Of a DNA stretch of 64,000 bases, positions 20,572 through 62,548 are shown piece after piece (position 1 is the first letter of the stretch; every line of letters starts with the position of its first letter). Location: NCBI GenBank assembly GCA_025943965.1, contig JAPCWD010000010.1, positions 29,110 through 93,109 on the forward strand. The letters are read 5' to 3'. The translations under genes and the position numbers were made by a program. The notes below the pieces were generated by a model, which saw only the letters and a program-made list of their open reading frames with translations, made no database searches and was not told the DNA's origin. Source of the DNA: Synergistaceae bacterium DZ-S4. GTDB taxonomy: Bacteria > Synergistota > Synergistia > Synergistales > Synergistaceae.

Positions 20572-20730
20572 TGCGACCGAGGGTCGTGAGGAAATTACAG
20601 CCTATTGGCTGCGGAGAATTTAAGGGCTGTGGCTTTTCAAGCCACTGAGAATTTGCGACAAAACCAGTTGTGGAGGATTTGCAACGCGTTGCGTTTCGGA
20701 GAAACTACAGCTTTGTAAGCTGCGGTGAAT
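20572..20730. repeat. Hairpin-linker array, about six degenerate units
   Basis: Units include ACAGCC/GGCTGC, GTGGCTT/AAGCCAC, ACAA/TTGT, CAACGC/GCGTTT-like and CAGCTT/AAGCTG stems, separated by linkers of type GGAGAATTT or GGAGGATTT. More degenerate than the arrays at 25793 and 40311. The rest of 20731-20936 has a CGTCCCG...ATCGGGGATTC module and short GC-rich inverted repeats but no gene. Confidence 0.75.
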
Positions 20731-20936
20731 GAAAACCTTGTGAACCGTCCCGCATTCTTAAATCGGGGATTCTACATGCCTTGAACGACTGCTTGTCTAT
20801 TACTCTCGCTTGCCGGCAGACCGGTATTTGATACCGCCGATTCGCAATAGATTTGCAGCTGATTACTGATCGACTCCAGACGGATGCAGTCCCCGTCTGT
20901 CTCTGACGTTTCTCTCTCAAATTGGGGATGTGTTGA

Positions 20937-21149
20937 ATGAACGAGAAAAACATAAAACTCTTTAAACAGATCAACATTTGTGTATACATTATCCCATTTT
21001 TCCTGATCACTGCCCTTTTTTCATTAAGGACATACAATGCGGTTGAGCAGAAGATCACCGACAGTTACGAGCACTTCACAGAAGATGCGGCCGATGCCGC
21101 GAGAAATTATTCATATACTTTAAAAAAAGCTAAGTTAACGCCGCTATAA
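20937..21149 (+). pseudogene. 5' remnant of a membrane sensor-type gene
   Basis: Seventy codons starting with ATG. The N-terminus has a transmembrane anchor (CVYIIPFFLITALFSL, about 15-31) followed by a periplasmic helix start (YEHFTEDAADAARNYSYTL), the layout of a sensor kinase or GGDEF protein. The frame runs into the right end of a 128-bp-type element at 21129, which supplies the last codons and stop. No continuation of the gene is seen, so it is probably a truncated fragment. Confidence 0.5.
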
Positions 21150-21160
21150 ATCCCAATTGC
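21129..21160. repeat. Remnant end of a 128-bp element
   Basis: Matches the right 32 bp of the element at 32073-32200 with two or so mismatches (GCTAAGTTAACGCCGCTATA then AATCCCAATTGC). No left partner within 130 bp upstream, so it is a partial copy. Confidence 0.75.
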
Positions 21161-21162
21161 AC

Positions 21163-21192
21163 TTGACAGGGGAATGAATGGAGTGATATTAT
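21163..21192 (+). promoter_or_regulatory. tRNA-Gly promoter
   Basis: Consensus TTGACA (21163-21168), 18-bp spacer, TATTAT (21187-21192), 11 bp before the tRNA. The -35 box begins 2 bp after the element remnant ends. Confidence 0.75.
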
Positions 21193-21203
21193 TCCCCCGT
21201 TGC

Positions 21204-21279
21204 GCGGAAATAGCTCAGCTGGTAGAGCGATGGCCTTCCAAGCCGTAGGTCGCGGGTTCGAGTCCCGTTTTCCGCTCCA
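21204..21279 (+). tRNA. tRNA-Gly(TCC)
   Basis: 76 nt including encoded CCA. Acceptor GCGGAAA/TTTCCGC, anticodon stem ATGGC/GCCGT with loop CTTCCAA giving anticodon TCC, T-loop TTCGAGT. Confidence 0.96.
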
Positions 21280-21287
21280 GAATGTTC

Positions 21288-21323
21288 AAAGCCCCCGCCT
21301 TTGGCAGGGGCTTTTTTCTTTCT
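21288..21323 (+). terminator. Terminator after tRNA-Gly
   Basis: AAAGCCCC / GGGGCTTT stem with an 11-nt loop and TTTTTTCTTTCTT. Confidence 0.9.
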
Positions 21324-21433
21324 TAAAAAGCTTATTGTGTGTATAGTATTGTGGCATGTTGAAGTAAAATTACCCGCTCTGTTGTTTTGTAAAATTGACC
21401 GAAGATAATTCAGCTGAGATCAGGAGAACTAGC

Positions 21434-22480
21434 ATGAAAAAGGATATATCTTATCATAATAAACTTACAGCAGCAGGAAAGCGCCAGGGCTGGTGGGATT
21501 CTGAGGGACTTGTTGCCGCGCTTTCGGGCGGCGGGGACTCTGTGGCAATGCTATGGCTCCTTCACCGTTTTTACAAAGGTAGGATCGTCGCCGCACATCT
21601 TGACCACTGTACGCGGGAGGGTATGTCCCACAGGGATGCGGAGTTCTCTGTTGAGCTATGCGAAAAGTGGGGCATCAAATGCATTGTCAAAACCGTCGAG
21701 GTATACAAGGAACGGCTGACGGGCGAGTCTTTTGAAATGGCGGGCAGAAGGGAGCGCTACACCCATTTCTATGAAACTGCGGAGGCGGAGGGGCTGCCCT
21801 TCATTGCTGTCGGCCACTCTGCTGACGACGTAGTAGAGACCCAGCTGATGAACCTTTTCAGAGGGACGGGACTGGAGGGACTGAGAGGGATCCCCGAGAG
21901 GAGGGGAATGATAGTCCGCCCGATAATAGATTTCCGAAGGGATGAGCTGAGGGAGATCCTCAGGGATAACGGGGTCGAATGGCGGGAGGACGCAAGCAAC
22001 GCCGACACCGTCTACAGGAGAAACAGGGTCAGGGAAGTGCTGATCCCGTGGATAAGGGAGAACATGAACCCGAACTTCGAGTCAGTTATGCTGGGGCTTT
22101 CCAAGCAGATAGACGCAGAACTTGAAAATAAAAAGAAAAACACGGAAAGGCTGATTTCAGAAGCTTCAATAACCATACCTCCGGCGATCGTATGCTGGTC
22201 TCCGGCATTCATAAAAAACGTCAAGGATACAGAACTGGCGGATATGCTCAGGCTCCAGGGCGTGCTGCTGGACCTCCCCAGGCTTGACAGAGACAGAACA
22301 ATGAAACTGCTCTCACTGATCCGAAAGGGCGGCAAATGGCGTTTCCAGTGGGCGAGAGATATTGAAATTTGTTGGTCGAACAGGGGTATGGGCTGGCTGC
22401 ATCGCAAAGATATCGCAAAAGGCGCAGACGAAAATAGGCAAAATGCCCGAAAAGAAGAGCTCCCATGGTGGGCGAGATAG
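21434..22480 (+). CDS. tilS: tRNA(Ile)-lysidine synthase TilS
   Basis: 348 residues from the ATG at 21434 with AGGAG 7 nt upstream. N-type ATP pyrophosphatase loop AALSGGGDSVAMLWLLHRF (about 25-43) and family motifs AAHLDHCTREG, MAGRRERYTHF, AVGHSADDVVETQLMNLFRG. It converts C34 of the CAU-anticodon tRNA-Ile to lysidine so that it reads AUA. The C-terminal domain is short compared with E. coli. Heads the tilS-hpt-ftsH cluster found in many bacteria. Confidence 0.93.
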   Translation: MKKDISYHNKLTAAGKRQGWWDSEGLVAALSGGGDSVAMLWLLHRFYKGRIVAAHLDHCTREGMSHRDAEFSVELCEKWGIKCIVKTVEVYKERLTGESFEMAGRRERYTHFYETAEAEGLPFIAVGHSADDVVETQLMNLFRGTGLEGLRGIPERRGMIVRPIIDFRRDELREILRDNGVEWREDASNADTVYRRNRVREVLIPWIRENMNPNFESVMLGLSKQIDAELENKKKNTERLISEASITIPPAIVCWSPAFIKNVKDTELADMLRLQGVLLDLPRLDRDRTMKLLSLIRKGGKWRFQWARDIEICWSNRGMGWLHRKDIAKGADENRQNARKEELPWWAR

Positions 22481-22549
22481 TAATAATTATGTTATTATGT
22501 CTAATGTTTTTGAGCAGAATAAACTTTGTCCTCAGGGAGTGTTTCTCAT

Positions 22550-23086
22550 TTGGAATATAAGATAGGCAAGACCCTTATTTCTGAAGAAAAACTTCAGGCG
22601 AAGATAAAGGAACTGGGAGAACAGCTGAGCAGGGATTACGCCGGTAAGCAGCTGATCTGTGTCTGTGTTCTTAAAGGCGCGGTGATATTCCTTGCCGACC
22701 TTATCAGGCACATAAGCCCTGAAGTGGATGTCAGGATCGACTTCCTGGCGATATCTTCATACGGGGCATCTACGAAGAGCAGCGGGGTAGTGCAAATACA
22801 GAAGGACCTGAGCACGGACATATACGGCAAAAATGTGCTTATAATAGAGGATATAGTTGATACCGGCCTTTCGCTGAAGTACATAAAGTCGCTGCTGCTC
22901 GAACGCAGGCCTCAGAGCCTTGCGATCTGCGTTCTGCTCGACAAGCCTGACCGCCGCAAGGAAACTGTGAAGGTCGAGTATACGGGGTTTACCATCCCTG
23001 ATGAATTTGTGATCGGCTACGGCCTGGATTACGCCGGAATGTTCCGCCATCTGCCGGCGGTCTTCATCGCCGAGCCCGTCGCGTAG
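22550..23086 (+). CDS. hpt: Hypoxanthine phosphoribosyltransferase
   Basis: 178 residues if started at TTG 22550 (AGGGAG 10 nt upstream), which matches the normal family length; a TTG at 22526 would add eight residues. PRPP loop VLIIEDIVDTGLSL is diagnostic, with VLKGAVIFLADL near the N-terminus and DEFVIGYGLDYAGMFRHLP at the C-terminus. Salvages hypoxanthine and guanine to IMP and GMP. Follows tilS by about 70 bp. A 128-bp element begins 2 bp after its stop codon. Confidence 0.93.
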   Translation: MEYKIGKTLISEEKLQAKIKELGEQLSRDYAGKQLICVCVLKGAVIFLADLIRHISPEVDVRIDFLAISSYGASTKSSGVVQIQKDLSTDIYGKNVLIIEDIVDTGLSLKYIKSLLLERRPQSLAICVLLDKPDRRKETVKVEYTGFTIPDEFVIGYGLDYAGMFRHLPAVFIAEPVA

Positions 23087-23088
23087 CG

Positions 23089-23216
23089 GCAATTGGGGTA
23101 TCTCGAAGCGCTAACTTAACAACATTCATTATCCGTCGCTTCGACGTATGACTAATACGTATTAGCTAGTACAATTTCATGTTGCGTCGTTATCATCTCC
23201 GATCTGCCCCAATTGC
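23089..23216. repeat. 128-bp terminal-inverted-repeat element, copy 1
   Basis: Ends GCAATTGGGG...CCCCAATTGC. Subterminal GCGCTAACTTAACAACAT on the left and ATGTTGCGTCGTTATCATC on the right; AACAT and ATGTT pair. Central hairpin CGTAT...ATACG. Same length as copies at 31878, 32073 and 42214. No ORF of note and no obvious target duplication. Confidence 0.85.
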
Positions 23217-23280
23217 AGGGGGAAATTGCGGAGCAAAACTCCGCGGAGAATTTGCAGCGCTTCGCATCCAAGAGGGGCGA
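23217..23280. repeat. Hairpin-linker array
   Basis: Abuts the element. Contains the perfect stem GCGGAG/CTCCGC with loop CAAAA, then GGAGAATTTGC and a GC-rich AGCGCTTCGCAT unit. Confidence 0.7.
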
Positions 23281-23450
23281 CTGAGCAATAGCTGAGCATG
23301 GCTAAGCAATAGCTGAGCGGTCGTCAGAACCAAAAGCACCGTCATTCCCGGACGAAACTTAACGGGAATCCAGCGGCTTAGATTTAAGATTTTTAAGGTT
23401 TCACGACTGCTTGCCAATCGCTTGCCAGTCTTTACAAACGTTCAGCTGCC
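23281..23450. repeat. 11-bp-period repeats and GGGAATCC module before ftsH
   Basis: At 23281-23322 GCTGAGC-type 7-mers alternate with short variable words (AATA, ATG, AATA, GGTC). A CGTCATTCCCGGACG...CGGGAATCCAGCGG inverted module follows at about 23339-23375. At 23400-23450 there are GCTTGCC 7-mers and the phrase GCCAGTCTTTACAAACG shared with three other spacers. The spacer 23087-23537 is otherwise without genes. Confidence 0.7.
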
Positions 23451-23537
23451 TTAAAAAACGGAATATCAAAAGCCACCATTTGTCGGATAGAAGAAGCAAC
23501 ACTTGAAAAACAATCGCACGAAAGTGAGGTCACACGT

Positions 23538-25523
23538 TTGAAGAAAACCTCTAAAAATGTAGGGATGTACATAATACTGATCGTCCTTGTCGTCAGCCTG
23601 GTCAATGTTTTTCTGACCCCTGACGGGAACAAGGCAGGTCAGACTGTCGAAGTGCTTCCTTATAGCCAGTTTCTGAATGAAGTCAACCTGGGCAATGTAA
23701 CGAAAGTAAAGATCGACCATGAACAGCTGAAAGGAACGCTCAAATCCGGCAAGGAGTTTACGACATACATCCTTGATCCCGGGACACTCCCGAGCGAGAT
23801 AGCCCAGAAGGGCGTTGAGGTCGAGGTGGTACCTCCTCCCAAGAACTCCTGGCTGACGGCACTTTTGACATCGCTGCTGCCCACTCTGCTCCTGATAGGC
23901 GTATGGATCTATTTCATATACAACATGCAGGGCGGCGGGAACAAGGTGATGGGCTTTGCGAAGAGCAAAGCAAAACTCTTCATGGACAACAGGCCCAAAG
24001 TTACTTTTGATGATGTTGCGGGCTGTGACGAGTCAAAAGAGGAACTTGAGGAGGTCGTGCAATTCCTCAGGGACCCGTCTAAGTTTACAAGGCTGGGAGC
24101 TAAAGTTCCTCGCGGTGTACTGCTGCTGGGCGCTCCGGGAACCGGAAAGACGCTGCTTTCCAGGGCAGTTGCAGGAGAGGCCAATGTTCCCTTCTTCAGC
24201 ATCAGCGGATCCGATTTTGTCGAAATGTTCGTTGGTGTCGGTGCTGCACGTGTGAGGGACCTATTTGAGCAGGCGCGCAAAAATCAGCCCTGCATCATTT
24301 TTATAGACGAGATCGATGCGGTCGGACGCCATCGCGGAGCAGGGCTCGGAGGCGGACACGATGAACGGGAGCAGACACTGAACCAGCTGCTGGTCGAGAT
24401 GGACGGTTTTGAGGCGGGAACAGGCATAATACTCCTCGCCGCGACCAACAGGCCTGACATTCTTGATCCGGCATTGCTCCGCCCGGGCCGTTTTGACAGA
24501 CAGATAGTAGTTGACAGGCCGGATGTAAACGGAAGACGGGATATTCTGAAGGTCCACCTCAAGGACAAGAAGATAAGCAAGGAAGTAGACCTTGATGTTA
24601 TCGCGAGAAGGACCCCGGGTTTTGTGGGCGCTGACATCGCGAACCTCGTTAATGAAGCTGCACTCCTTGCAGGCCGTAGAAACAAGGACAAGCTTGGCAT
24701 GGCCGAGTTCGAAGAGGCTATTGACAGGGTCATGGCAGGTCCTGAACGCAAGAGCCGCGTTATAAGCAAGAAAGAGCGAGAGATCATCGCCTATCATGAA
24801 GCCGGACATGCACTGGTGGCAAGCAAGATAGACGGCAGCGACCCTGTACACAAGATCTCAATAATACCGAGAGGCCACATGGCACTTGGTTACACACTGC
24901 AGCTGCCCGAAGAGGACCGGTTCCTCATCTCAAAGAAGGAACTTTCAGACAGGATAACGATATTGCTCAGCGGACGTGTGACTGAGCTGCTGAAATTTGG
25001 AGATGTCACAACAGGCGCTTCCAACGACCTTGAGAGGGCAACGCAGATAGCCCGGCAGATGGTCACACAGTTTGGGATGAGCGACAGGCTTGGACTGGTG
25101 ACTCTCGGCAGGAAGCAGCATGAGGTATTTCTTGGCAGGGATATCATGGAGGACCGGAACTACAGCGAAGAGATAGCATATGCGATAGACCAGGAAGTCC
25201 GCAGCATAATAGATGAATGCTTCAATCTTGCGAAGAATATCCTTACGGAACACAGCGAACGCCTGGAGGAGATAACAGCTCTGCTTCTTGAGAAGGAAGT
25301 CCTTGAGGGTGATGAGCTTGATGAGCTTCTCGGCTACCCGAAGAAAGAAGCTCCGGTAGTCCCTGCAGTGACGGACGAGGAGGAAGCTTATTCCGAAAAC
25401 GATGAGAACGGAACTGAAGAGGACAACGGCTCTGAGGGCGAAGAAGAGGAAAAAAAGAAGGCTCAGGAGAGTGCGGAAGACCCTGACGAAGACGACGAAG
25501 ATCCTGACGAGGAAGAAGAGTAA
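23538..25523 (+). CDS. ftsH: ATP-dependent membrane zinc metalloprotease FtsH
   Basis: 661 residues. TTG start with GAGG 8 nt upstream; no ATG is available nearby. TM1 about 9-27, periplasmic domain, TM2 about 114-131. AAA module: Walker A GAPGTGKT, Walker B IIFIDEID, second region of homology [21 protein letters not shown] split by the family arginine. M41 zinc site HEAGH with the distal Asp further on. It degrades short-lived and misassembled membrane proteins. The last 60 or so residues are a very acidic tail (runs of Glu/Asp with a few Lys), longer than in most homologues. A terminator follows closely. Confidence 0.96.
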
Positions 25524-25535
25524 AGAAACTACCCG

Positions 25536-25561
25536 AAAGGAGCCGAAAGGCTCCTTTTTTG
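25536..25561 (+). terminator. Terminator of the tilS-hpt-ftsH cluster
   Basis: AAAGGAGCC-GAAA-GGCTCCTTT, a GNRA-type tetraloop, then TTT. Confidence 0.93.
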
Positions 25562-25628: not shown

Positions 25629-25639
25629 GCCCATCGTCA

Positions 25640-25761: not shown

Positions 25762-25792
25762 GTTGTTCAGTTGTAGTTACAAGGCCAGGTTC

Positions 25793-25892
25793 GGGGAATT
25801 TGCAGCCTTTGGCTGCGGTGAATTCGCGACGTTCGTCGCTGGGGAATTTGCTCGCTTCGCTTTGCGGGGAATTGCGGCCAAAGGCCGCGAAG
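25793..25892. repeat. Hairpin-linker array, four clear units (type example)
   Basis: Successive stems GCAGCC/GGCTGC (loop TTT), GCGAC/GTCGC (loop GTTC), a TCGC/GCGA-like unit, and GCGGCC/GGCCGC (loop AAA), joined by GGTGAATTC, TGGGGAATTT and GGGGAATT. Unit length is 24-25 nt. The stems differ but each is self-complementary. Confidence 0.85.
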
Positions 25893-26035
25893 TTTCAAAA
25901 TCACCGTCTCCCCAGGCATTGGCCTTACTATCCGTCGTTCCCGGACGCTTCTTATCAGGAAAATGCCGCTTCCTGTTAAGGAAACATTTAAAAACTCCTT
26001 AGCATTTGAACTATTTCGAATGCGCTTTGAGATCG
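25893..26035. repeat. Long duplicated module, copy 1
   Basis: Runs from a CAAAATCACCGT phrase through CGTCGTTCCCGGACGCTT, AATGCCG, TTCCTGTTAAGGAAACAT (itself an inverted repeat) and AACTATTTCGAATGCGCTTT to GATCGGGAATCC. The same order with about 85-90% identity by eye is at 40421-40575. Position 26036-26165 holds another GGATCC/GGGGAAGACGG piece. No gene. Confidence 0.75.
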
Positions 26036-26167
26036 GGAATCCCGCTCTGGTTTTAGGGACTATAAGTTTAGTTATAGCAAGGATCTAGAGACAATGGATC
26101 CCCGATTTAGGCATTAGGGGAAGACGGTTTAAAAGACCTTGATTCGCCGCCTGACTTAGTCAGGCAA

Positions 26168-31133: not shown

Positions 31134-31903
31134 GGGAAGAAAAGGCAACAATAAACGAAGATATATGCTGGGGAAGAAACCCGGTATTCTCACTGCTTGA
31201 GGAGTCGCCTGAGAGGTGCATGAAGGTGATCATCTCGAAGACAGTCCAGCCCCACATAAGGGCCAGATTGCAGGAACTCTGCCGGTCTGCCAACATCGTC
31301 CTCCAGACGGTCGAATCCGCTGCAATGGACAAGATGACCGGCAAGGAGAACCATCAGGGCGTAGTTGCTTACATGGCTCCGATGAAGCTGTGGGAGGCGG
31401 AGGAACTCATCCAAATGCTTCCAGAGGCGCCTGAGCCTGCCATGGTCATCCTGTGCGACCATCTTCAGGACCCGCACAATCTGGGCGCCGTCATAAGGAG
31501 CGCCGAAGCAGCGGGTGCGTCCGCAGTGATGATACCCAAACGGGGAGGAGCCCTTCCCACGGGGACAGTCGTCAAGACGAGCGCAGGGGCTGCGCTGAGG
31601 CTGCCTATAGCAAAGACAGGCAATGTTTCCCAAACAATAAGGCTGCTCCAGGAGGCCAACTTCTGGGTGGTGGGCCTTTCAATGGACGCAGAGGAGACCC
31701 TCTTCAAGGAAGACATGCCCCCAAGGCTGGCCATAGTGATAGGCGCAGAAGGCGCCGGCCTGGGCCAGTCAGTTGCAAAGTCATGCGACGAGCTGAGGTA
31801 TATACCCATGGCCGGAAAGACGGGGTCGCTGAATGCATCCGTGGCGGCGGCACTTGCACTTTTCGAATACACTCGCAGCAATTGGGGCATCTCGGAGCGC
31901 TAA
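31130..31903 (+). CDS. rlmB: TrmH/SpoU family 23S rRNA 2'-O-methyltransferase, RlmB type
   Basis: 257 residues, starting in the ATGA overlap with uvrA. N-terminal L30e-like substrate-binding domain (about 1-95; GRNPVFSLLEES) and SPOUT knot domain with DPHNLGAVIRSAEAAGA, VIGAEGAGLG and GSLNASVAAALALFEY. Should methylate G2251-type ribose in 23S rRNA. The natural end appears to be near FEYTRS; the last residues (NWGISER) and the stop codon come from a 128-bp element that begins at 31878. Confidence 0.92.
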   Translation: MREEKATINEDICWGRNPVFSLLEESPERCMKVIISKTVQPHIRARLQELCRSANIVLQTVESAAMDKMTGKENHQGVVAYMAPMKLWEAEELIQMLPEAPEPAMVILCDHLQDPHNLGAVIRSAEAAGASAVMIPKRGGALPTGTVVKTSAGAALRLPIAKTGNVSQTIRLLQEANFWVVGLSMDAEETLFKEDMPPRLAIVIGAEGAGLGQSVAKSCDELRYIPMAGKTGSLNASVAAALALFEYTRSNWGISER

Positions 31904-32005
31904 CTTAGCAACATTTGCGATCCTGCGCTTAGACGTATGTCCAATACGCCTTCGCTTGGACCACTGCATGTTGCGTCGCTATCATCTCCGATCTGCCCCA
32001 ATTGC
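31878..32005. repeat. 128-bp element, copy 2, overlapping the end of rlmB
   Basis: GCAATTGGGGCATCTCGGAG on the left, GCCCCAATTGC on the right. Same subterminal motifs (GCTAACTTAGCAACAT, ATGTTGCGTCGCTATCATC) and central CGTATGTCCAATACG. It is followed at once by one hairpin-linker unit, GCGGAAG-GTA-CTTCCGC then CGTTGAATTTG (32001-32030). Confidence 0.85.
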
Positions 32006-32072
32006 GGAAGGTACTTCCGCCGTTGAATTTGTCCCTTGCCCCTTGGACATGCTCAACAAAGGCAAAAAGTGT

Positions 32073-32200
32073 GCAATTGGGATTTAGAGTGAGTGATAAC
32101 GACGCAATACGTAGCGGAACATGCCGAAGGCGTATACCAATACGTCGAAGTGGGGATCCGCAAGCCTTGCTAAGTTAACGCTGCTATAAATCACAATTGC
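32073..32200. repeat. 128-bp element, copy 4, inverted and of a variant subtype
   Basis: Left GCAATTGGGATTTAGAGTGA, right TATAAATCACAATTGC. Its left subterminal GATAACGACGCAA equals the reverse of the right side of copies 1-3, so it points the other way. Central GCGTATACCAATACGTC is kept. The first 16-20 bp differ from the GGGGCATCTCG subtype. With copy 2 it frames 67 bp. Confidence 0.82.
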
Positions 32201-32228
32201 TTGCTTTTTTGGGGATTAATGCTACAAT
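32201..32228 (+). promoter_or_regulatory. rimP operon promoter
   Basis: TTGCTT (32201-32206), 16-bp spacer, TACAAT (32223-32228). The -35 begins at the base after the element end. Confidence 0.65.
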
Positions 32229-40300: not shown

Positions 40301-40310
40301 GCACATGGGC

Positions 40311-40420
40311 CAGGGTCGGGGAATTTGCAGCCTTTGGGCTGCGAAGAATTCGCGGTCTTCGGTTGCTGGAGAATTCGCTCGCTTCGCATCGCGGAGAATT
40401 GCGGCCAAAGGCCGCGGAGG
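40311..40420. repeat. Hairpin-linker array, four units
   Basis: Same unit order as 25793-25892: GCAGCC/GGCTGC, then GCGGTC/GGTTGC (paired with G-U wobble where the other copy has GCGAC/GTCGC), a TCGC/GCGA unit, and GCGGCC/GGCCGC. Changed stems keep pairing. Confidence 0.85.
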
Positions 40421-40575
40421 CTCAAAATTACCGTTGTTTCTGCCATTAGCCTAACTCTCTGTCGTTTCCGGACGCTTCCCCCCTGATCAGGAGAATGCCG
40501 TTTCCTGTTAAGGAAACATCTAAAAACTCCTTAGCATTCGAACTATTTCGAATGCGCTTTGAGATCGGGAATCCA
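40421..40575. repeat. Long duplicated module, copy 2
   Basis: Collinear with 25893-26035, including TTCCTGTTAAGGAAACAT and AACTATTTCGAATGCGCTTT. Ends in GATCGGGAATCCAGCG. Another ATCGGGATCCAGCGG piece follows at about 40655-40672. Confidence 0.75.
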
Positions 40576-40682
40576 GCGTCTTTTGGTTAGGTTTTGAAAA
40601 GCCGGTGAAATACTAAGTTCAGAGACACTCGTATCCCCAAGTGCTTAAATCGGGATCCAGCGGCTTCGGTTTAAAGGTTTTT

Positions 40683-40822
40683 AGATTTTACAACTGCTTA
40701 GCGACCGCTTAGCTATTGCTCAGCAACCCGCTCAGCCGATTTTTACGACTGCTTGCCAACTGCCAGTCTTTACAACCGCTTCACCATTGTTTCACGCGGT
40801 GCTGAGCACCGCAGTTTCACAT
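40683..40822. repeat. 11-bp-period array before the surA-like gene
   Basis: First block GCTTAGC/GCTCAGC words (40690-40738), second GCTTGCC and the CCAGTCTTTACAA phrase, third GCTTCAC/GTTTCAC, then a GCGGTGCTGAGCACCGC palindrome. It ends 40 bp before the SD of the next gene. Confidence 0.75.
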
Positions 40823-42213: not shown

Positions 42214-42341
42214 GCAATTGGGGCATCTCGCGGCGCTGACTTAGCAACATGCGATGCTCCATCACCTCAACGTATTAATATACGCCTCGGTTCGGAGCAT
42301 CACAAGTTGCGTCGTCATCACTCGCGATCTGCCCCAATTGC
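42214..42341. repeat. 128-bp element, copy 3
   Basis: GCAATTGGGGCATCTCGCGG to GCCCCAATTGC. Nested palindromes: GATGCTCC/GGAGCATC around CGTATTAATATACG. It starts 4 bp after the tRNA terminator. Confidence 0.85.
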
Positions 42342-42464
42342 GATATTGGTGAAGGTATCGCTAAAATCTAAAAGCGCGGCGCTGACTTACCGACATGCAA
42401 TTCTGTAACTGCGGCAGAAGAAATGCCGCGTGAAGCGGCGATCTTTATCGCCGTGAAACAATTG

Positions 42465-42570
42465 TGAAGCAATTGTTTTTAAAGACATCTGAATTATTGT
42501 TTTATCTTAAACAACTGCTTCACCACTGTTTCACAACCGTTTCACGCCGGAGACTTTACGGCAGCTTCAC
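42465..42570. repeat. 11-bp-period repeats
   Basis: CAATTGTGAAGCAATTG palindrome, then GCTTCAC-CACT-GTTTCAC-AACC-GTTTCAC-GCC with exact 11-bp steps at about 42518-42550. Nothing else is seen in 42342-42618. Confidence 0.7.
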
Positions 42571-43902: not shown

Positions 43903-43958
43903 TCGTTTCACTCCTTATGAGATTATGATTTTTGATAAAGATGAATCCAAAAGTTTTT

Positions 43959-43980
43959 AGAGATACAGCCCTATATCTCT
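43959..43980. promoter_or_regulatory. Inverted repeat in the divergent spacer
   Basis: AGAGATA-N8-TATCTCT, about 60 bp before the symporter start; possible operator or leader stem. The spacer 43903-44214 has no gene. Confidence 0.4.
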
Positions 43981-44156
43981 TACGTTGATTTTAGCATAAA
44001 TCTAAGATCGAGAGGTAAAAAACTGCAAATGATTTAAAGAACTTAAAACTTTTCTTAGTTGTTTATGGTTGTTATAATCTTAACGCCCCATGCTGATAAT
44101 TGCAGGCATCAGGCTGGTTCCGGGCTTCTTTTTAGCTCTTGACCGGCATCCTGCCT

Positions 44157-44190
44157 TATAATAGGGGACGGGTCTCATAGAGGCCCTGTC
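44157..44190 (+). promoter_or_regulatory. -10 box and leader hairpin before the metal transporter
   Basis: TATAAT (44157-44162); a TTGACC lies only 12 bp upstream, so the true -35 is unclear. Just after the expected start the RNA can fold GAC-GGG-TCTC / GAGG-CCC-T-GTC (44167-44190) with an ATA loop and one bulge, ending 10 nt before AAGGAG. Could be a metal-responsive leader, but I cannot match it to a known riboswitch. Confidence 0.35.
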
Positions 44191-44214
44191 AACAGTTAAA
44201 GGAGATGTTTAAAA

Positions 44215-49676: not shown

Positions 49677-49700
49677 GACATGGCTGAGCTGTTCTTAAGT

Positions 49701-49893
49701 CGGGGAGGAACTTCATCCGCTGGGAATTTGCAACTTCTATGCTGTGGAGAATTTGCTTCGCATCGCGGAGCATTGCCTCCAAAGGCCGTGGAGATCCAAT
49801 TTTTAAGAATTATATGGTCCAATTCACCGCAACGTGATCTTTGCTGCAAATTTACCGCGACAGGATTTTCGTCGCAAATTCACCGGCGGGAGC
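49701..49893. repeat. Two hairpin-linker arrays facing each other
   Basis: Forward half (49701-49785) with GCTGGGAATTTGC, GTGGAGAATTTGC and GCGGAGCATTGCC linkers, a centre at about 49795-49835 (TTTTTAAGAATTATATGG then TCCAATTCACC), then a reverse half with GCAAATTTACC and GCAAATTCACC linkers and a GCGAC...GTCGC stem. The centre resembles that of the pair at 53514-53781. The rest of 49677-50002 shows nothing else. Confidence 0.78.
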
Positions 49894-50002
49894 ATTATCC
49901 GCTTGCTTTAACGGCTGGTGGCATGATTGGTTTTATATGGTAAACTTTGTATTTGACATGCTTTGATCAGCAATAATGAAAGCAGTATTGGAGGAATTTA
50001 CA

Positions 50003-51715: not shown

Positions 51716-51834
51716 CAGGGAATTTGTAGTCTCTCGACTGCGGTGAATTTACGGCAAGGATCATGCCACGGGGAATTTGCGACAAAACCGGTCGCGGAGA
51801 ATTTGCATCGCTTCGCATCGCGGAGAATTCAGGC
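51716..51834. repeat. Hairpin-linker array
   Basis: Four to five units: GTAGTC/GACTGC, a GGCA/TGCC unit, GCGAC/GTCGC with loop AAAACCG, GCATCGC/GCATCGC-like, each followed by GGTGAATTT or GGAGAATTTGC. Confidence 0.8.
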
Positions 51835-51854: not shown

Positions 51855-52136
51855 TACCGTCGTTCCCGAATGCTTAAATCGGGAATCCAGCGGCTTTGGG
51901 TTTAGAGCCGATAAACCCTGTCATAGTCAGAACCTAGAGACACTCTGGATCGATTGACCCACTCGGGGAAGACGGGAATGGTTGATTTTACGGTTTTACG
52001 ACTGCTCAGCTATTGCTCGACAACCGACAACAGTTCAGCCGCATTTTAAAACGACTGTCTGACAACCGTTTGGCCATAGTTTGACAGTATTTTTAAACTA
52101 TTGCTTGCCAGTCTTTACAAACGCTCAGCCGCATTT
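51855..52136. repeat. GGGAATCC module and 11-bp-period array before gltX
   Basis: CGTCGTTCCCGAATGC then ATCGGGAATCCAGCGG at 51858-51895, an ACTCGGGGAAGACGG piece near 51960, then from about 51998 GCTCAGC, GCTCGAC, GTTTGGC, GTTTGAC and GCTTGCC words at 11-bp-like steps, ending in CCAGTCTTTACAAACGCTCAGCC. Confidence 0.7.
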
Positions 52137-53498: not shown

Positions 53499-53513
53499 AG
53501 ATAAGGCGGCCGA

Positions 53514-53781
53514 GCGGCTGTGAAAACAGCCGGAGAATGTGTCCGCCGGTGAATTTGCGACGAAAATCTTGACGCGGTGAATTTGCAGCGTCTGCGCTGC
53601 GGGGAATTTGCAGCAAGGATCACGCTGAGTTGAATTGGACCATAATCCTTAAAGATTGCAACTCCGCGGCCTTTGGCCGCAATTTTCCGCGATGCGAAGC
53701 GATGCAAATTCTCCAGCGACGAGTGTCGCGAATTCTCCGCAGCCCGGGGGATGCAAATTCCCCGCGGCCTTTGGCCTCACG
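53514..53781. repeat. Large inverted pair of hairpin-linker arrays
   Basis: Forward units to about 53630 (GGCTGT/ACAGCC, GCGAC-type, GCAGCG/CGCTGC with loop TCTG), a centre TGAATTGGACCATAATCCTT then AAAGATTGCAACTCC, then reverse units GCGGCC/GGCCGC, GCATCGC-type, GCGAC/GTCGC and a final GCGGCC/GGCC. The spacer 53499-53861 contains no gene beyond this. Confidence 0.82.
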
Positions 53782-53810
53782 TTGTCTCTCTCTTCCCTTG
53801 CATTTACAAT
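53782..53810 (+). promoter_or_regulatory. polA promoter
   Basis: TTGTCT (53782-53787), 17-bp spacer, TACAAT (53805-53810). The -35 starts right after the last hairpin unit. Confidence 0.6.
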
Positions 53811-53861
53811 GTATTGCGTACATGGATGAAGTAACCTTTTATTATGCAGAGGATGGTAATT

Positions 53862-56456: not shown

Positions 56457-56499
56457 AAAAAGAGGCCGGCAAGATAGGCACTACCTTAAGGCCCATACG

Positions 56500-56590
56500 A
56501 CCGTTTCACTATTGTTTGACAACGTTTGACGATCGTTTGACCGCCTTTACAACTGTTCAATTACCGCTCAGCCATGCTCAGCAAATTCTT
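56500..56590. repeat. 11-bp-period array before rpmE
   Basis: GTTTCAC-TATT-GTTTGAC-AAC-GTTTGAC-GATC-GTTTGAC-CGCC, then TTTACAACT and GCTCAGC words. Confidence 0.8.
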
Positions 56591-57052: not shown

Positions 57053-57745
57053 TTGCCGATAGAAGTTGAATTGATCGCAAGCACCCCGGATGCCGCAAAA
57101 GTGGTCGCTGCCGCTGCTAAAATTTGCTACAGCCCTTCAGGGGCTATGGACATCCTTGAAGGACTTGACGAAAAAAAGACCGTCTCATTTTTGAAGATGC
57201 TGAGGGAGTCAGGTCATCTTTCGCCATTCGAGCATGTCTCATTTACATTTGCCATAGAGGGAGTAAGCAGGGTCGCAACACACCAGCTCGTCAGGCACAG
57301 ACTTGCAAGCTATTCCCAGCAGAGCCAGCGGTATGTGGGCATGTCGGGACAGACGTGCATTGTGCCTCCTTCGGTACTTGAAAATAAAGAGGCGCACGCG
57401 CTCTTTATGAAGCAGACAGAAGATGCCTGGAAATGTTATGAGGAACTTGTCTCACTTGGGATCTCGAAAGAGGACGCGCGCTTCATATTGCCTCACGGGA
57501 CTGAGACAAGGCTCGTGATGACAATGAACGCCCGCGAACTGCACCATTTCTTCTCTCTGAGGCTTTGCAGAAGAGCTCAGTGGGAGATAAGGGAACTGGC
57601 ACGAAAAATGCTGATACTGGCAAGAGACGCAGCTCCCGACATATTTGATGTCGCGGGACCTTCCTGTGTCGTTGAAGGAGTATGCAAAGAGGCTCACCCA
57701 TGCGGTGAGCCGTATGTGAGCATGGAGAAGATGTTGTCTGAATGA
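57053..57745 (+). CDS. thyX: Flavin-dependent thymidylate synthase ThyX
   Basis: 230 residues, TTG start with AGGAGG 8 nt upstream. ThyX signature RHRLASYSQQSQR is complete, with SPFEHVSFTFAIEGVSR before it and LPHGTETRLVMTMNARELHHFFSLR after. Makes dTMP from dUMP with methylenetetrahydrofolate, NADPH and FAD. Ends in ATGA overlap with the DUF1385 gene. Confidence 0.96.
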   Translation: MPIEVELIASTPDAAKVVAAAAKICYSPSGAMDILEGLDEKKTVSFLKMLRESGHLSPFEHVSFTFAIEGVSRVATHQLVRHRLASYSQQSQRYVGMSGQTCIVPPSVLENKEAHALFMKQTEDAWKCYEELVSLGISKEDARFILPHGTETRLVMTMNARELHHFFSLRLCRRAQWEIRELARKMLILARDAAPDIFDVAGPSCVVEGVCKEAHPCGEPYVSMEKMLSE

Positions 57746-58719
57746 AGAATATCAGAATTGCTCTGCGGCGGATGACCATATCCGCTGCGTTGGGTGTTCC
57801 GAAGAGGATACCGGTAGGCGGTCAGGCAGTTATAGAGGGAGTGCTTATGAAGGGTCCGGAACATTGGGGGCTGGCGGTCAGGGAACCGGGAGGTTCCATC
57901 TGGCTCACGGCGTGGCTCGGTTCCGGTTGGCTCAAAAGGGGCATATGGAAATATCCGGTCATCCGTGGTTTTGCAACTATGGTAGAGATGATGAGGATAG
58001 GCATGAGGGCCCTCTCCCTTTCCGCGGAGATCAGCCTCGGTGAGGAGGACAACATCACTCCGCTTGAGATGGCAGGAGCGATAGCCGTTGCCATCTTTGC
58101 AGTCGCGGGACTTTTTGTCGCGCTGCCGATGCTTGTTTCGGAATACCTCACATCCCTCTTGGGCCTTGCACATCTGACAAAAAACATCGCAGAGGGCATA
58201 CTGAGGGGTATAATTTTTGTCGGTTATGTCGCAATGATAGGACTTTGGAAGGATATACAGCAGGTCTTTGCATACCATGGAGCGGAGCACAAAACGATAA
58301 ACGCTTATGAGAACGAAGCCGAGCTCGCGCCTGAGAACGTGGCAAAGTTTTCGAGGATACACAGGCGCTGCGGTACCTCTTTCCTGCTGGTAGTGATCTT
58401 GGTCAGCATAATAGTATTTTCCGCAATAGGGGGAGGGTCACTGCTGTGGAGGATAGGAAGCAGGGTACTTCTGCTGCCTCTGGTGATAGGCATCTCATAT
58501 GAGTTCATAAAAGGTGCGTCAAACTCTGATACTTGGGGAAGATACTGCATAATGCCGGCCCTTTCGCTCCAGTACATCACAACAAGGGAACCAAGGATCG
58601 ACCAGATAGAAGTTGCCCTGGCCGCGCTGGATTTGGCTTTGCACCCGGATACAGCCGCGGAAAACACGCAGAGTGAAGCAGTTGGGAACAATATTGAAGC
58701 AGTGGTGAAGCAGTTGTAA
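57742..58719 (+). CDS. DUF1385 (YqhQ) membrane protein
   Basis: 325 residues. N-terminal GGQAVIEGVLMKGPEHWGLAV is the family signature, with AYHGAEHKTINAYEN and RCGTSFL further on; about five helices. Often found just before prfA-prmC, as here. Function unknown; some relatives are linked to PRPP or envelope physiology. The last ten or so codons (EAVVKQL) lie in an 11-bp-period repeat array that supplies the stop. Confidence 0.88.
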   Translation: MKNIRIALRRMTISAALGVPKRIPVGGQAVIEGVLMKGPEHWGLAVREPGGSIWLTAWLGSGWLKRGIWKYPVIRGFATMVEMMRIGMRALSLSAEISLGEEDNITPLEMAGAIAVAIFAVAGLFVALPMLVSEYLTSLLGLAHLTKNIAEGILRGIIFVGYVAMIGLWKDIQQVFAYHGAEHKTINAYENEAELAPENVAKFSRIHRRCGTSFLLVVILVSIIVFSAIGGGSLLWRIGSRVLLLPLVIGISYEFIKGASNSDTWGRYCIMPALSLQYITTREPRIDQIEVALAALDLALHPDTAAENTQSEAVGNNIEAVVKQL

Positions 58720-58832
58720 GGGTGGACAAAAATCTGGCAACGACTGCTTGCCAATTGCTCACGCTTGCCGATCGCTTGCCAGTCTTTACAACTGGTTCAC
58801 GCGGCAGATACTGCCGCAGTTTCACGCAGGAA
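58690..58832. repeat. 11-bp-period array overlapping the end of the DUF1385 gene
   Basis: On the minus strand GCTTCAC-CACT-GCTTCAA words in the coding end, then on the plus strand GCTTGCC-AATT-GCTCACGCTTGCC-GATC-GCTTGCC, the CCAGTCTTTACAACTG phrase and a GCGGCAG-ATA-CTGCCGC hairpin. Confidence 0.7.
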
Positions 58833-58870
58833 GGACCATCCTGCAACTAAAACAGGTGGTGTAACAACAT

Positions 58871-59944
58871 ATGGAATTGATGAATAAGTTAAGGGAGATC
58901 GAACAGAGTTATAAGGAGATCGAGACGCGCATGGCTGATCCGGAGGTCGCTAACGACCCCCAGGAGATGCAGTCGCTTGGAAAGAAGCACGTTGACCTGA
59001 CCCCGATCGTAGATGCATTCATGCAGTACGAATCCGTACTGCAGGGGATCAAGGACTCGAAGGAAATGATCGCGGGGGACGACAGGGAGATGGCCGAGCT
59101 TGCAAAGGAAGAGCTGGCTCTCCTGGAATCTCAGGTCGAGGGCCTGGAAAGGCAGATCCAGATCCTCCTGCTGCCGAAGGACATCAACGATGACAGAAGC
59201 GTCATCATTGAGATAAGGGGAGGTGCGGGAGGAGACGAGGCAGCCCTCTTTGCCGCCAACCTTTTCCGAATGTATACGAGATTTGCCGAACGCCAGAGGT
59301 GGAAGACAGAGATCATATCGGGAAGCGAGACTGGCATAGGCGGATATAAGGAAATAATCTTCAGGATCGACGGAACAGGGGCATACAGCAGCCTGAAGTT
59401 CGAAAGCGGTGTCCACAGGGTACAGCGCGTGCCCGAGACAGAAGCAAGCGGACGCATACACACATCTACGGCGACTGTAGCAGTCCTCCCTGAAGCAGCG
59501 GACGTCGACATCGAAGTCCGTACCGAGGATCTTAAGATCGACACCTACCGAGCCAGCGGAGCAGGCGGACAGCACGTCAACATGACGGACTCGGCTGTAA
59601 GGATCACACACCTTCCGACTGGTATAGTCGTGACGTGCCAGGACGAGAGATCACAGATCAAGAACAGGGCAAAGGCGATGCAGTTCCTGAGAACGAAGCT
59701 CTACGACGCAGAGCTGCAGAAGCAGAACGCCGAAATGGCCGCGGAGAGAAAGGGGCAGGTCGGGACAGGAGACCGCTCAGAACGCATCAGGACTTACAAT
59801 TATCCGCAGAACAGGATATCAGACCACAGGATAAATCTCACACTTTACAAACTTGACCAGGTCATGGACGGAGACATCTATGAGCTAATACGCGCACTCT
59901 CAGATGCAGATCAGGCGGAAAAGCTTAAAATGCTGACCGTTTAA
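58871..59944 (+). CDS. prfA: Peptide chain release factor 1
   Basis: 357 residues, ATG after AGGTGGTG. Codon-recognition P-x-T motif as PET in [14 protein letters not shown] (RF1, reads UAA/UAG); GGQ in [10 protein letters not shown]. The Gln is the target of the PrmC methylase encoded next. Confidence 0.96.
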
Positions 59945-59954
59945 GGAGTAAAAT

Positions 59955-60800
59955 TTGAAACTCTCCGAACTTCGTTCCGAATGTCTCAGCATGCTCCTGA
60001 AAGAAGGGATAGAGAGGCCCTTCTACACAGTTGACCTGATCCTCTCGAAAGCGCTCGGGATAGAAAGGGCGCTCCTTATAGCCAAAGGCTATATGGAAAT
60101 TCCCGCGCAGAAATGTGTGGGAATTTTGTCTATGACAGAGAAGCGATCTGCGAGGGTCCCCCTCTCATATATACTGGGCGAAGCGGAATTTTACGGCAGG
60201 CCTTTTGAAGTAGGTGAAGGCTGTCTGATCCCCCGACCCGAAACGGAATTGCTTGTAGAAGAAATGCTGAATGCCTGTCCTGATGCTGAAAGATTTGCGG
60301 ACTGGTGCACGGGGAGCGGATGCATAGGTTTAACACTGCTTCTGGAAAATCAGAATTTATCAGGCTATGGAATAGATTCAAGTCAAAATGCCCTAAATTG
60401 GGCAGATTTAAATACCTATAAATATAATTTAAAATCAAGATTTAGTTTAATATTGAATTCAGATCCCTCTGTATGCGATATTCCACCGGGATCACTTGAT
60501 TTCATAGTTGCCAATCCGCCATATATTCCTTCCAAAGAGGTCAACAGGCTCATGTCAGATGTTAAGGACCACGAACCCATTGAAGCACTGGACGGCGGAG
60601 AGGACGGGACTAAACTCTACAGGCTCTTTTTTGAGAGTTTTCCGAGGTTTCTTAAGGATGGAGGCTTTATGGGATTCGAGACAGGCGGGGACGAACAGGC
60701 GGATATACTCATATCCATGGCCCCGGGCAATTTTGTTCTAATGAACAGGATTTTCGACTATAACGGCATATTACGGCACCTGACGTGGAAAAAGAATTGA
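59955..60800 (+). CDS. prmC: Release factor glutamine methyltransferase PrmC
   Basis: 281 residues, 10 bp after prfA. N-terminal helical RF-binding domain, SAM motif WCTGSGCIGLTLLLE, and catalytic NPPY in VANPPYIPSKEV. Methylates the GGQ Gln. A short stretch (about 60330-60460) is visibly AT-richer than the rest, but the frame and motifs are intact. Confidence 0.95.
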   Translation: MKLSELRSECLSMLLKEGIERPFYTVDLILSKALGIERALLIAKGYMEIPAQKCVGILSMTEKRSARVPLSYILGEAEFYGRPFEVGEGCLIPRPETELLVEEMLNACPDAERFADWCTGSGCIGLTLLLENQNLSGYGIDSSQNALNWADLNTYKYNLKSRFSLILNSDPSVCDIPPGSLDFIVANPPYIPSKEVNRLMSDVKDHEPIEALDGGEDGTKLYRLFFESFPRFLKDGGFMGFETGGDEQADILISMAPGNFVLMNRIFDYNGILRHLTWKKN

Positions 60801-60861
60801 AAATAATATAGAATTCGGAAAGTTATATCAGATAAAAAAATTTCGTGAAGGAGCGTTTTTT

Positions 60862-62058
60862 ATGGAAAAAAGAGAACTTGTCATAATAGGAGCGGGACCT
60901 GCTGGTCTCACCTCCGCGATTTACGGACGCCGCGCCGGCCTTGATGTGCTGCTTCTCGAGAAAGGCATCCCCGGCGGTCAGATCAACATAACAGACGAAA
61001 TAGAAAACTGGCCGGGTGTTATACATTCTTCAGGTTCAGAACTTGGTGTTTCTTTCAGGAAGCATGCCGAACACTTCAAAACGGAATTCAGGGACTGCAC
61101 AGTATCCGGGATCGAGATAAGGAACGGAAGCAAGATCGTTATCACTGATAAAGGCGAAGTTGAAGCCGAAGCTATAATCCTTGCCACAGGGGCAAGCTTC
61201 CGCAAGCTAGGCTGCAAAGGCGAAGCTGAATTTACCGGCGGGGGAGTCAGCTATTGTGCTGTCTGTGATGCGGCATTCTTTGAAGATGAAACTATTGCCG
61301 TGGTAGGCGGCGGGAATGTTGCCGTAGAAGAGGCCGGATACCTTACCCGTTTTGCATCAAAAGTTTATATAATCCACAGGCGCGATGAATTCAGGGCGGA
61401 CAGGCTTGCAATAGAACAGGCACTCTCCAACCCAAAGATAGAGCCGATATGGAACTCTGTTGTTGAATCAATAGAGGGAGAAGGGCTTGTTGAAAAATTG
61501 GTGCTGAAGAACGTAAAGACTGGAGAAATTTCGGACCTGCCCGTTGCCGGAGTCTTTGTCTTTGTCGGCACTGAGCCCAACATATCTTATCTCGGTGAGC
61601 ACGGATCACTTGTCAAGCAGACCCGCGGGGGCTGGATCGATACGAACGACAAGATGGAGACATCGGTGGAAGGCATATTCGCCGCAGGAGACATCCGCGA
61701 AAAGTATCTGCGCCAGGTAGTTACTGCTGCAGGGGACGGCGCTGTTGCATCGATGGCAGCCTACTCCTACATTACTGAGCAGCTGCATCTCCGCTCTGTC
61801 CTGATAGACCCGGACCATGTCTGTGCGCTGATGACTTCGAGCATTGACCAGAGCCAGATAAACCTTCAGGTCGAGACAGAGAAATATGCAAAAGAGAGCG
61901 GAGTAAAGATCGTCCTAATAGATGGCTACAGAAATGCCAGAATGGTAGAAAAACTTGGCATAAAAGAACTTCCCGCACTCCTAGAGCTTAAAAAAGGAGA
62001 GATAGTCCGCAGCCTAAAACCCCAGGATCTGAATGCGGTCAAAGAGTTTGTTAAGTAA
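60862..62058 (+). CDS. trxB: Thioredoxin reductase with fused, redox-inactive thioredoxin-like tail
   Basis: 398 residues, AAGGAG 8 nt before the ATG. FAD loop GAGPAGLTSAIYGRRAG, redox YCAVCDAAFF, NADPH GGGNVAVEEAGYL and HRRDEFRA, second FAD motif GIFAAGDIREK: a full low-Mr TrxR through about residue 308. The last 85 residues look like thioredoxin (VEKLGIKELPALLELKKGEIV with the cis-Pro site), but the CGPC position reads SSIDQS. So the tail should bind, not reduce. Confidence 0.9.
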   Translation: MEKRELVIIGAGPAGLTSAIYGRRAGLDVLLLEKGIPGGQINITDEIENWPGVIHSSGSELGVSFRKHAEHFKTEFRDCTVSGIEIRNGSKIVITDKGEVEAEAIILATGASFRKLGCKGEAEFTGGGVSYCAVCDAAFFEDETIAVVGGGNVAVEEAGYLTRFASKVYIIHRRDEFRADRLAIEQALSNPKIEPIWNSVVESIEGEGLVEKLVLKNVKTGEISDLPVAGVFVFVGTEPNISYLGEHGSLVKQTRGGWIDTNDKMETSVEGIFAAGDIREKYLRQVVTAAGDGAVASMAAYSYITEQLHLRSVLIDPDHVCALMTSSIDQSQINLQVETEKYAKESGVKIVLIDGYRNARMVEKLGIKELPALLELKKGEIVRSLKPQDLNAVKEFVK

Positions 62059-62099
62059 GAAAGGCTGAGGAGTTGTAAAGACTGGCAATTGGCGAGCGG

Positions 62100-62180
62100 C
62101 CGTAGGGGCCAAAGGGCGGGGATTTGCGGCCAAGGGCCGCGGGGAATTCGCGTCCTTCGGCCGCTGGAGAATTTGTTCGC
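62100..62180. repeat. Hairpin-linker array, forward
   Basis: GCGGCC/GGCCGC with loop AAG, a GCGTCC/GGCCGC-like unit, and a TCGC/GCGA unit, linked by GGGGAATTC and TGGAGAATTTG. Confidence 0.78.
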
Positions 62181-62283
62181 TTCGCATCCAGGAGGGGCGG
62201 CTGAGCAGGGACACAGGCCCCCGATTTAAGCACTCGGGGAAGACGATATAAAAAACTTTTATTCACAGCCGGATGGGTCTTCC

Positions 62284-62352
62284 TGCAAAATTCTCCGCGA
62301 TGCGAAGCAAGCAAATTCTCCGCGGCATGTCCCACTCCGCAATTCCCCGAGG
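62284..62352. repeat. Hairpin-linker array, reverse
   Basis: Linkers AAAATTCTCCGC and CAAATTCTCCGC, then CAATTCCCCG. A CCGATTTAAGCACTCGGGG-type module (about 62219-62240) lies between this and the forward array, and one more reverse unit is at about 62448-62480. Confidence 0.75.
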
Positions 62353-62366
62353 TGGCTTTTCAAAAG

Positions 62367-62436
62367 CTCTTACGATCGTTTGACGACTGTTTGACAACCG
62401 TTCGACTATCGTTTGACCGCCTCTGCGTCCTCACCA
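62367..62436. repeat. 11-bp-period array (type example)
   Basis: GATC-GTTTGAC-GACT-GTTTGAC-AACC-GTTCGAC-TATC-GTTTGAC-CGCC: four consecutive 11-bp steps with one mismatch in the 7-mer. Confidence 0.85.
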
Positions 62437-62548
62437 TTGTTAAGCTGTAAATTCTCTGCGGTTTAAAAGCCGCAATTCCCCCAATTGTTTCATCTCTGCC
62501 AAACAGCTAGAATAATCGAATATCTAAACAACTCATGGGGGAAGCTTA

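Follow-up and report, generated by a model that had tools for sequence, protein, structure and literature searches.

Mirror-image nests of short-unit arrays in the spacers of a Synergistaceae genus, possible gene-less relatives of fold-back elements with IVP genes

Foldback (FB) transposons of eukaryotes have long inverted ends composed of short tandem repeats, and the middle may or may not be coding. Their organisms and proteins are unrelated to the mosaics of short repeats described here, for which they serve as an analogy only. These mosaics occupy intergenic spacers of Synergistaceae bacterium DZ-S4 and were studied from a stretch of 64,000 nucleotides (the window, G000:C10:29110-93109, from an assembly of 2,148,913 bp in 41 contigs). 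In rRNA intervening sequences, a small open reading frame (ORF) of the IVP/S23 family is bordered by complementary fold-back ends. They are sporadic, and the cited part of PMC4990558 gives a length of 428 nt, compared with ~0.66 kb for a G007 spacer discussed below. The family is called functionally uncharacterised in the cited part of PMC11270868. Bacterial interspersed mosaic elements (BIMEs) and REPINs, which go with REP-associated tyrosine transposases (RAYTs; REP, repetitive extragenic palindrome), are intergenic inverted palindromic repeats like the mosaics here (PMC2817692 and PMC3116915, parts cited). For a CGTC-tagged REP superfamily, the available text of Di Nocera et al. 2013 (PMC3733652) reports that no dedicated transposase was found; it names five phyla, none of them Synergistota, and the string 'synergist' does not occur in it. 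In the genus of DZ-S4, arrays of short units are nested in mirror image to form the spacer mosaics. We read these, with a probability of roughly one half, as degenerate relatives, without a gene, of fold-back mobile elements in which the coding members would have an IVP gene (PF05635).

Four modules make up the mosaics: the hairpin-linker array (L), the 11-bp array (u), a CGTC-tagged REP-like unit (C) and a 128-bp palindrome (E), with + and - for orientation. The DNA compared comprised ~461 kb of the window's genome (G000), 300 kb of G008, 185 kb of G007 and smaller pieces of G006, G010 and G041; the genus is represented by eight genomes, some incomplete (G000 and G005-G011), and G041 belongs to an outgroup genus with synteny. 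Absolute counts lean towards the patterns used for modules and units, which had been taken from the sequences ahead of counting. In an L array, the linker GGAGAATT, or GGTGAATT or GGGGAATT, alternates with hairpins, which measure 16-20 nt in 86 of 93 cases in G000. The 93 consecutive linker pairs of that genome hold 76 distinct hairpins, with 0 pairs inside called genes, and the exact linker GGAGAATTTGC is present there in 51 copies, against 0 for a reversed-sequence control. Pooling three species gives 135 distinct hairpins, and their stems covary. Among 92 distinct class A units, pairs 3, 4, 5 and 6 are formed in 74, 73, 79 and 59, compared with 38.0, 55.4, 39.2 and 35.2 expected if the two sides were independent. 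In class B (23 units) the figures are 16 against 10.5 for pair 5 and 16 against 8.3 for pair 6, and the outer pairs are nearly invariant. Stem scores of a unit with its own partner exceed all 200 shuffles in each of the three species, although some hairpins, the GCTTCGCATCGC group, fold poorly. The hairpin-linker arrays invert the logic of REPs, since the linker is constant while the stems vary and stay complementary; in BIMEs and REPINs a conserved stem is expected. A constant linker with freely varying self-complementary stems is unusual, and what gets copied seems to be a shape.

The u array consists of short runs of the unit NAYYGNYYNNC. Its flavours (GATTNCC, GCTCAGC, GCTTGCC, GTTTGAC and GCTTCAC) differ in frequency among species, and units inside one array tend towards a common flavour. 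The sampled spacers of the three species contain 25, 41 and 26 arrays of at least three units, against 0 in ~791 kb of genes, and a lag of 11 gave the most arrays among the lags tested in all three. When pairs alone are counted, L or u pairs appear in 6 of 755 called genes. The C module is a CGTCGTTCCCGG...CGGGAATCC unit with a CGTC start, the stem ATTCCCG...CGGGAAT and a CCA tail. It resembles the CGTC-tagged REPs in the tag, the A-T first stem pairs and the tail (checked on 23340-23372). The cited part of PMC3733652 gives a stem of 8-9 bp and a loop of 4-5 nt, whereas the C module has either about a dozen nt in its loop or a long interior and is a variant at most; unlike the published repeats, it sits at the axis of other arrays. 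Two C-module interiors of the window, 25951-26045 and 40483-40577, have in common a 95-bp stretch of 94% identity with inner palindromes. A MITE would be expected to have terminal inverted repeats, a target duplication and a full-length parent; the E module has ends of the form GCAATTGGGG...CCCCAATTGC. In one G007 stretch (L148, G007:C14:289069-289456), three such elements stand head-to-tail with hardly any gap, and the first two read the same. Both the C and the E module probably represent repeat families of their own that ended up in the same nests.

Module order was counted once per spacer over the 106 spacers holding L, u or C modules, and the overall plan is mirror-symmetric: u-, L+, C, L-, u+. 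Hairpin arms converge in 17/17 spacers holding both (L+ left of L-, 17:0), and the 11-bp arrays are mirrored in 25/27 (u- left of u+, 25:2). The u- array lies left of L+ in 11:2, of L- in 12:1 and of C+ in 11:0; L+ lies left of C+ and of u+ in 15:0 each; C+ lies left of L- in 9:0 and of u+ in 10:0. The order of L+ before C- is weaker (3:2). Counted as single pairs, u-/u+ occurs 60 times and u+/u- 3 times. Since loci may share ancestry, binomial values for these orders overstate the surprise. Folded as single-stranded DNA, one composite is predicted to form a long hairpin, far better than its shuffles (z -15.3). In addition, dispersed composites carry common hairpins in the same order, as read by eye, and 25783-26045 and 40308-40577 of the window are part of a dispersed L-C composite (270 bp, 85% identical). 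The earlier note, made from the sequence of the window, had seen the modules in a linear order before genes and called them interdependent. The order is indeed far from random, but it is mirror-symmetric, with the 11-bp array also reversed and left of the hairpin arrays; interdependence finds no support, as modules also occur singly and the type at one site varies between species.

The tie to IVP genes comes from a sister species. A small ORF between the u- and u+ arrays of the G007 hpt-ftsH spacer matches the profile PF05635, 23S_rRNA_IVP, and for the related product of L157 there is a match of solved structure, 2gsc (E 1.9e-18). Four PF05635 genes are present in three of the eight genus genomes (two in G007, one each in G008 and G009), and all four lie among arrays of mosaic style. 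In L160 and L159, the gene has a u- array of four units on one side and a u+ array of four units on the other. In L157 the composite reads u-4, L+4, u+2, IVP gene, u+4. The gene of L158 is inside a second hairpin-linker family, with linker GAGAAGTG and ~20 units of varying stems on both sides of the gene. This locus lies on G008:C4 near 233 kb; the spacers at 231.0, 232.8 and 233.5 kb are alike. At the hpt-ftsH site the IVP gene is found in G007 and G009, while G008 and one further species have no ORF there and end in a last unit and a hairpin almost identical to those of G007.

Across the phylum, 26 PF05635 matches exceeded the cut-off, 24 of them with a locus. For each locus, the inverted-repeat score of the flanks was compared with 100 dinucleotide shuffles, and a locus was positive when 0/100 reached its score. 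Inverted flanks were found in 22 of 24 loci, and in 18 of 20 when the four genus genes that prompted the idea are set aside, compared with 5 of 241 controls. The controls were a mixture of genes called in G041 and ORFs found by regex at 32 ftsH loci; 250 had been drawn, and 9 were lost to flanks that were short or contained N. This test was adopted after the result of a raw alignment-score statistic was seen; that statistic was uninformative, with high scores in control ORFs, and 5 of 29 loci passed its control 99% level and 10 of 29 its 95% level. The left flank of an IVP gene is up to 30 nt longer than in the controls and starts at the domain, not at the start codon. Outside the genus, a period of 7 or a multiple occurs in both flanks at 13 of 20 loci, with units such as GTGAATC or GACAGCT. 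Arrays also stand away from IVP genes. The array word CGTGACTCGTGACTCG, counted exactly, has 39 copies at ~26 places in G183, although this genome has one IVP gene, and 10 copies in G184, which has two IVP genes and no copy on their contigs; G175 has two copies, and G176, G177, G000 and G008 have none. In other phyla, scanning 40 of 80 genomes reached through ftsH loci gave 25 passing matches, 24 with a locus and 23 testable, of which 10 have inverted flanks. Like the rRNA intervening sequences, the loci in sister species and most of the phylum have an IVP ORF between inverted arms. They differ in that the copies here lie in spacers, have arms of short repeated units and in many cases lack an ORF, as do those of the window.

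We suggest tentatively a so far unrecognised superfamily of fold-back mobile elements that spans phyla and is defined by shape and not by sequence, with IVP genes as its coding core and with mirrored 7-bp, 11-bp or hairpin-linker arms; rRNA intervening sequences would be its best-known residents and the spacer mosaics its non-autonomous swarm. In G109, an IVP gene and its arms lie inside a putative coding gene (L162:150-2306), presumably one for a type III DNA methyltransferase. The frame of this gene stays open throughout, over 718 codons, so that translation would use two frames of the element. By analogy, nucleic-acid binding is plausible for PF05635 proteins, since the family resembles Avd, an accessory protein in diversity-generating retroelements (PMC10053308, part cited). 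A diversity-generating retroelement or shared reverse transcriptase was rejected, since RVT_1 is found only in G008, ~93 kb from the IVP gene, and neither G007 nor G009 has a match. In a survey of CRISPR-linked proteins, a 23S rRNA IVP domain is among the labels (PMC10910872, part cited), and arrays beside IVP genes might be mistaken for CRISPR arrays by such survey pipelines.

In the fold-back model, the coding form would have a small four-helix-bundle IVP gene between its arms, and gene-less forms would persist and multiply, possibly helped in trans. The elements would spread by copying. Newcomers would land near the axis, or loop, of older elements, much as rRNA intervening sequences take the place of helix loops (PMC4990558, part cited), producing the nested order of 11-bp array, hairpin array and CGTC repeat, and the arrays may turn over through unequal exchange or slippage. 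The element's protein, or host enzymes of replication or RNA processing, would act on the fold-back shape, not on a fixed sequence. Transcribed copies would by analogy be substrates of RNase III, like rRNA intervening sequences. If IVP genes usually lie between inverted arms, in many cases made of short-unit arrays, the protein, the rRNA intervening sequences and many spacer repeats become one testable system. It would also help to explain the large spacer share of three species of the genus, ~14-19% of the sampled DNA against 12% in G041; these totals are approximate, as the home-made gene caller misses some genes.

Several results weigh against this reading. No transposition, excision or target duplication was seen (for the 128-bp element, duplications were not searched systematically), and nothing observed links the CGTC and 128-bp modules to IVP genes. 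Four IVP genes in one genus is a small number, and PF05635 has no match in the window's own genome, nor in G005, G006, G010 or G011. A u-/gene/u+ arrangement is found for two of 733 genes, one of which is not an IVP gene. Because L157 is part of a larger composite, its nearest arrays have the same orientation, and the mirrored one lies further left. L- lies left of u+ in only 8:4 spacers. At the phylum level, L171 and L172 fail the flank test, and L185 has inverted flanks yet no evident array; in other phyla 13 of the 23 loci fail, leaving the positives below half. The two arms, moreover, do not match beyond chance. In hairpin arrays, the arms within a locus resemble each other no more than arms taken from separate loci do (776, 123 and 506 of 1000 permutations were as high in G000, G008 and G007, with 10, 5 and 2 loci), and the two u arms of a spacer have a common flavour in 33 of 60 cases against a shuffle mean of 30.2, which is chance. 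Therefore, arm-to-arm pairing is not visibly maintained. Homogenisation between arms was rejected as well, none being seen in this comparison. The earlier note had left the choice between a parasitic system and one used in RNA or DNA structure. The association with IVP genes speaks for the parasitic branch; the structural one is supported inside single hairpins, where stems covary, but not between the two arms.

IVP genes may instead be passengers inserting into the loops of palindromic arrays that are present for other reasons, which we think rather doubtful. The L157 gene inside a larger composite fits such insertion, and rRNA intervening sequences replace helix loops (PMC4990558, part cited). 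However, in other genera short-period arrays stand at most IVP genes although the arm sequences differ by locus, and the L162 element is inside a putative coding gene, where no earlier array would be expected. It is unlikely that the host owns these structures, with the hairpins and 11-bp arrays kept for RNA roles such as mRNA ends and processing, or as helical-phase protein-binding arrays. A period of 11 bp is about one helical turn, the stems covary, and modules are present in 13/18, 5/12 and 8/8 convergent spacers of at least 150 bp. Yet presence and type differ at orthologous spacers of species with ~82% DNA identity, modules are absent from the syntenic outgroup G041, and every strand arrangement of neighbouring genes is in use. 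Growth in place, in which slippage and template switching at replication hairpins make and correct palindromes locally, would account for the varying complementary stems, the changes in unit number and the lack of visible target duplications, and the common flavour tendency inside one array agrees with it. We hold it improbable, because the dispersed composites, such as the L-C pair above, carry common ordered units and the same units appear at several loci and in several species.

Movement of REP/BIME-type repeats in trans by a RAYT, a Y1 tyrosine transposase, seems quite improbable. G000 has two Y1_Tnp genes of 320 aa with 11-bp and hairpin arrays within ~0.7 kb, the CGTC module resembles REP, and BIMEs are likewise mosaics of inverted REPs. 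But the linkers of G006-G011 (12, 36, 36, 27, 5 and 2 copies) occur without any Y1_Tnp match, two of these genomes being 99% complete, and G007 and G008 come close to array-bearing genomes that lack a RAYT altogether. A RAYT as the shared driver was rejected, with no match in six of eight genus genomes and one broken copy in G005. A RAYT would be expected to be flanked by the repeat that it moves, whereas the two in G000 adjoin a repeat of their own, GGGGTCAGACCTACACA (23 copies, 13 of them no more than 2 kb upstream of these genes), with the module arrays somewhat further off. The stems vary here, while REP families have the stem in their consensus, and the cited part of PMC3733652 gives no transposase link for CGTC repeats. 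Upstream of one RAYT (L092:14260-15112, G000:C3:74260-75112), GGGGTCAGACCTACACA occurs 11 times in <1 kb; the 23 copies counted in the genome are the exact ones. A further cluster of 5 copies lies on contig C5 of G000, which has no Y1_Tnp match.

The hairpin arrays are nearly restricted to one genus. The linker GGAGAATTTGC occurs 2-36 times in the seven other genus genomes and 0-5 times in 44 others of the family, and the L-unit pattern matches in 8 of 185 phylum genomes, six of them in the genus, with one single match in G083 and one in G041. The 128-bp element has 24 matches in G000, 11-26 in five more genus genomes and none in G010 and G011; outside the genus it has 4 matches in G041 and 1 weak match in G040. 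Spacers of at least 300 bp in the sample hold at least one module in 42/77 cases in G000, 27/52 in G008, 28/41 in G007 and 1/9 in G041; these shares are not genome averages, because the G000 stretches on C4, C6, C7, C9, C12, C16 and C17 and many of those in G007 and G008 were picked for linker matches. Of 11 syntenic spacers, none holds L, u or C in G041; in G000, L and u are present in 5 each and C in 4. Over 22 spacers compared between G000 and G008 (82% DNA identity, one gene), u arrays are common to the two species in 5 and confined to a single species in 5; for L arrays these numbers are 1 and 6. The spacer 53499-53861 has L+/L- arms in the window's genome and u-/u+ arrays in G008. The L-unit match of G041 sits on contig C65, whose ftsH is ~92% identical to that of G008. 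Horizontal transfer to G041 was rejected: C65 and C94, the contigs on which the modules lie, look like contaminants originating in the window's genus, since the hpt-ftsH stretch of C65 is 90-92% identical to G008 and another ftsH is on C2. The loci L151 and L130 (G041:C65 and C94) are thus on putative contaminant contigs from another species of that genus.

The modules of the window are collected in Table 1. The gene names ftsH, surA, gltX and M48 are taken from the first sequence reading. The ftsH product has its two best relatives in Synergistaceae MAGs, and Synergistaceae are also named in several TilS hits. Rfam at gathering thresholds finds four tRNAs only in the window, with no rRNA match.

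Table 1. Repeat modules located in the window (window coordinates)
Feature	Position	Strand
Hairpin-linker pair (two linkers, one unit), earliest in window	11938..11972	+
Degenerate hairpin-linker array (L+), 3 linkers at 20613-20680	20572..20735	+
128-bp palindromic element, 84% to 31876-32006	23089..23216	+
Hairpin-linker pair (L+)	23220..23253	+
Reversed 11-bp array (u-)	23281..23322	-
CGTC-tagged REP-like unit	23340..23371	+
Forward 11-bp array (u+), before ftsH	23405..23426	+
Hairpin-linker array (L+), 4 linkers	25793..25874	+
CGTC-tagged REP-like unit, long interior with palindromes	25933..26042	+
128-bp palindromic element, used as query copy	31876..32006	+
Second 128-bp-type element, inverted, 74% identical	32094..32201	-
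Hairpin-linker array (L+)	40321..40401	+
CGTC-tagged REP-like unit, long interior; surroundings 40308-40577 repeat 25783-26045	40460..40574	+
Forward 11-bp arrays (u+), two flavours	40692..40795	+
128-bp palindromic element	42214..42342	+
Reversed 11-bp array (u-)	42453..42474	-
Forward 11-bp array (u+)	42513..42545	+
Hairpin-linker array, left arm (L+)	49721..49754	+
Hairpin-linker array, right arm (L-)	49820..49884	-
Hairpin-linker array (L+), 5 linkers	51717..51830	+
CGTC-tagged REP-like unit	51858..51888	+
Forward 11-bp arrays (u+)	52000..52085	+
Hairpin-linker array, left arm (L+)	53548..53609	+
Hairpin-linker array, right arm (L-)	53680..53763	-
Forward 11-bp array (u+)	56499..56520	+
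Hairpin-linker array, left arm (L+)	62117..62174	+
Hairpin-linker array, right arm (L-)	62288..62348	-
Forward 11-bp array (u+), 4 units	62374..62417	+
Extra hairpin-linker pair (L-), right of u+ array; breaks nested order	62449..62481	-
Reversed 11-bp array (u-), 4 units, then CGTC-type 3' end 63874-63882	63775..63818	-

The earlier note had placed modules in most long spacers of the window from 20.5 kb on and none in 1-11.9 kb. The former is borne out: of 11 called spacers of at least 290 bp from 20.4 kb on, a strict scan is positive in 8, looser matching and reading add 20464-20936 and 49677-49975, and 43903-44214 has no modules. The sole called spacer of that size before 20.4 kb (1378-1797) has none either. 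The absence from 1-11.9 kb is right for hairpin and 11-bp arrays; two putative CGTC-like matches lie at 660 and 6685. The note could match the modules to no described family, and the open-access literature searched likewise gave none for the hairpin-linker and 11-bp arrays, whereas the CGTCGTTCCCGG...CGGGAATCC unit fits the CGTC-tagged REP superfamily with a longer loop. Its expectation of a genome-wide system agrees with our counts, as the modules recur across genome G000 and the genus.

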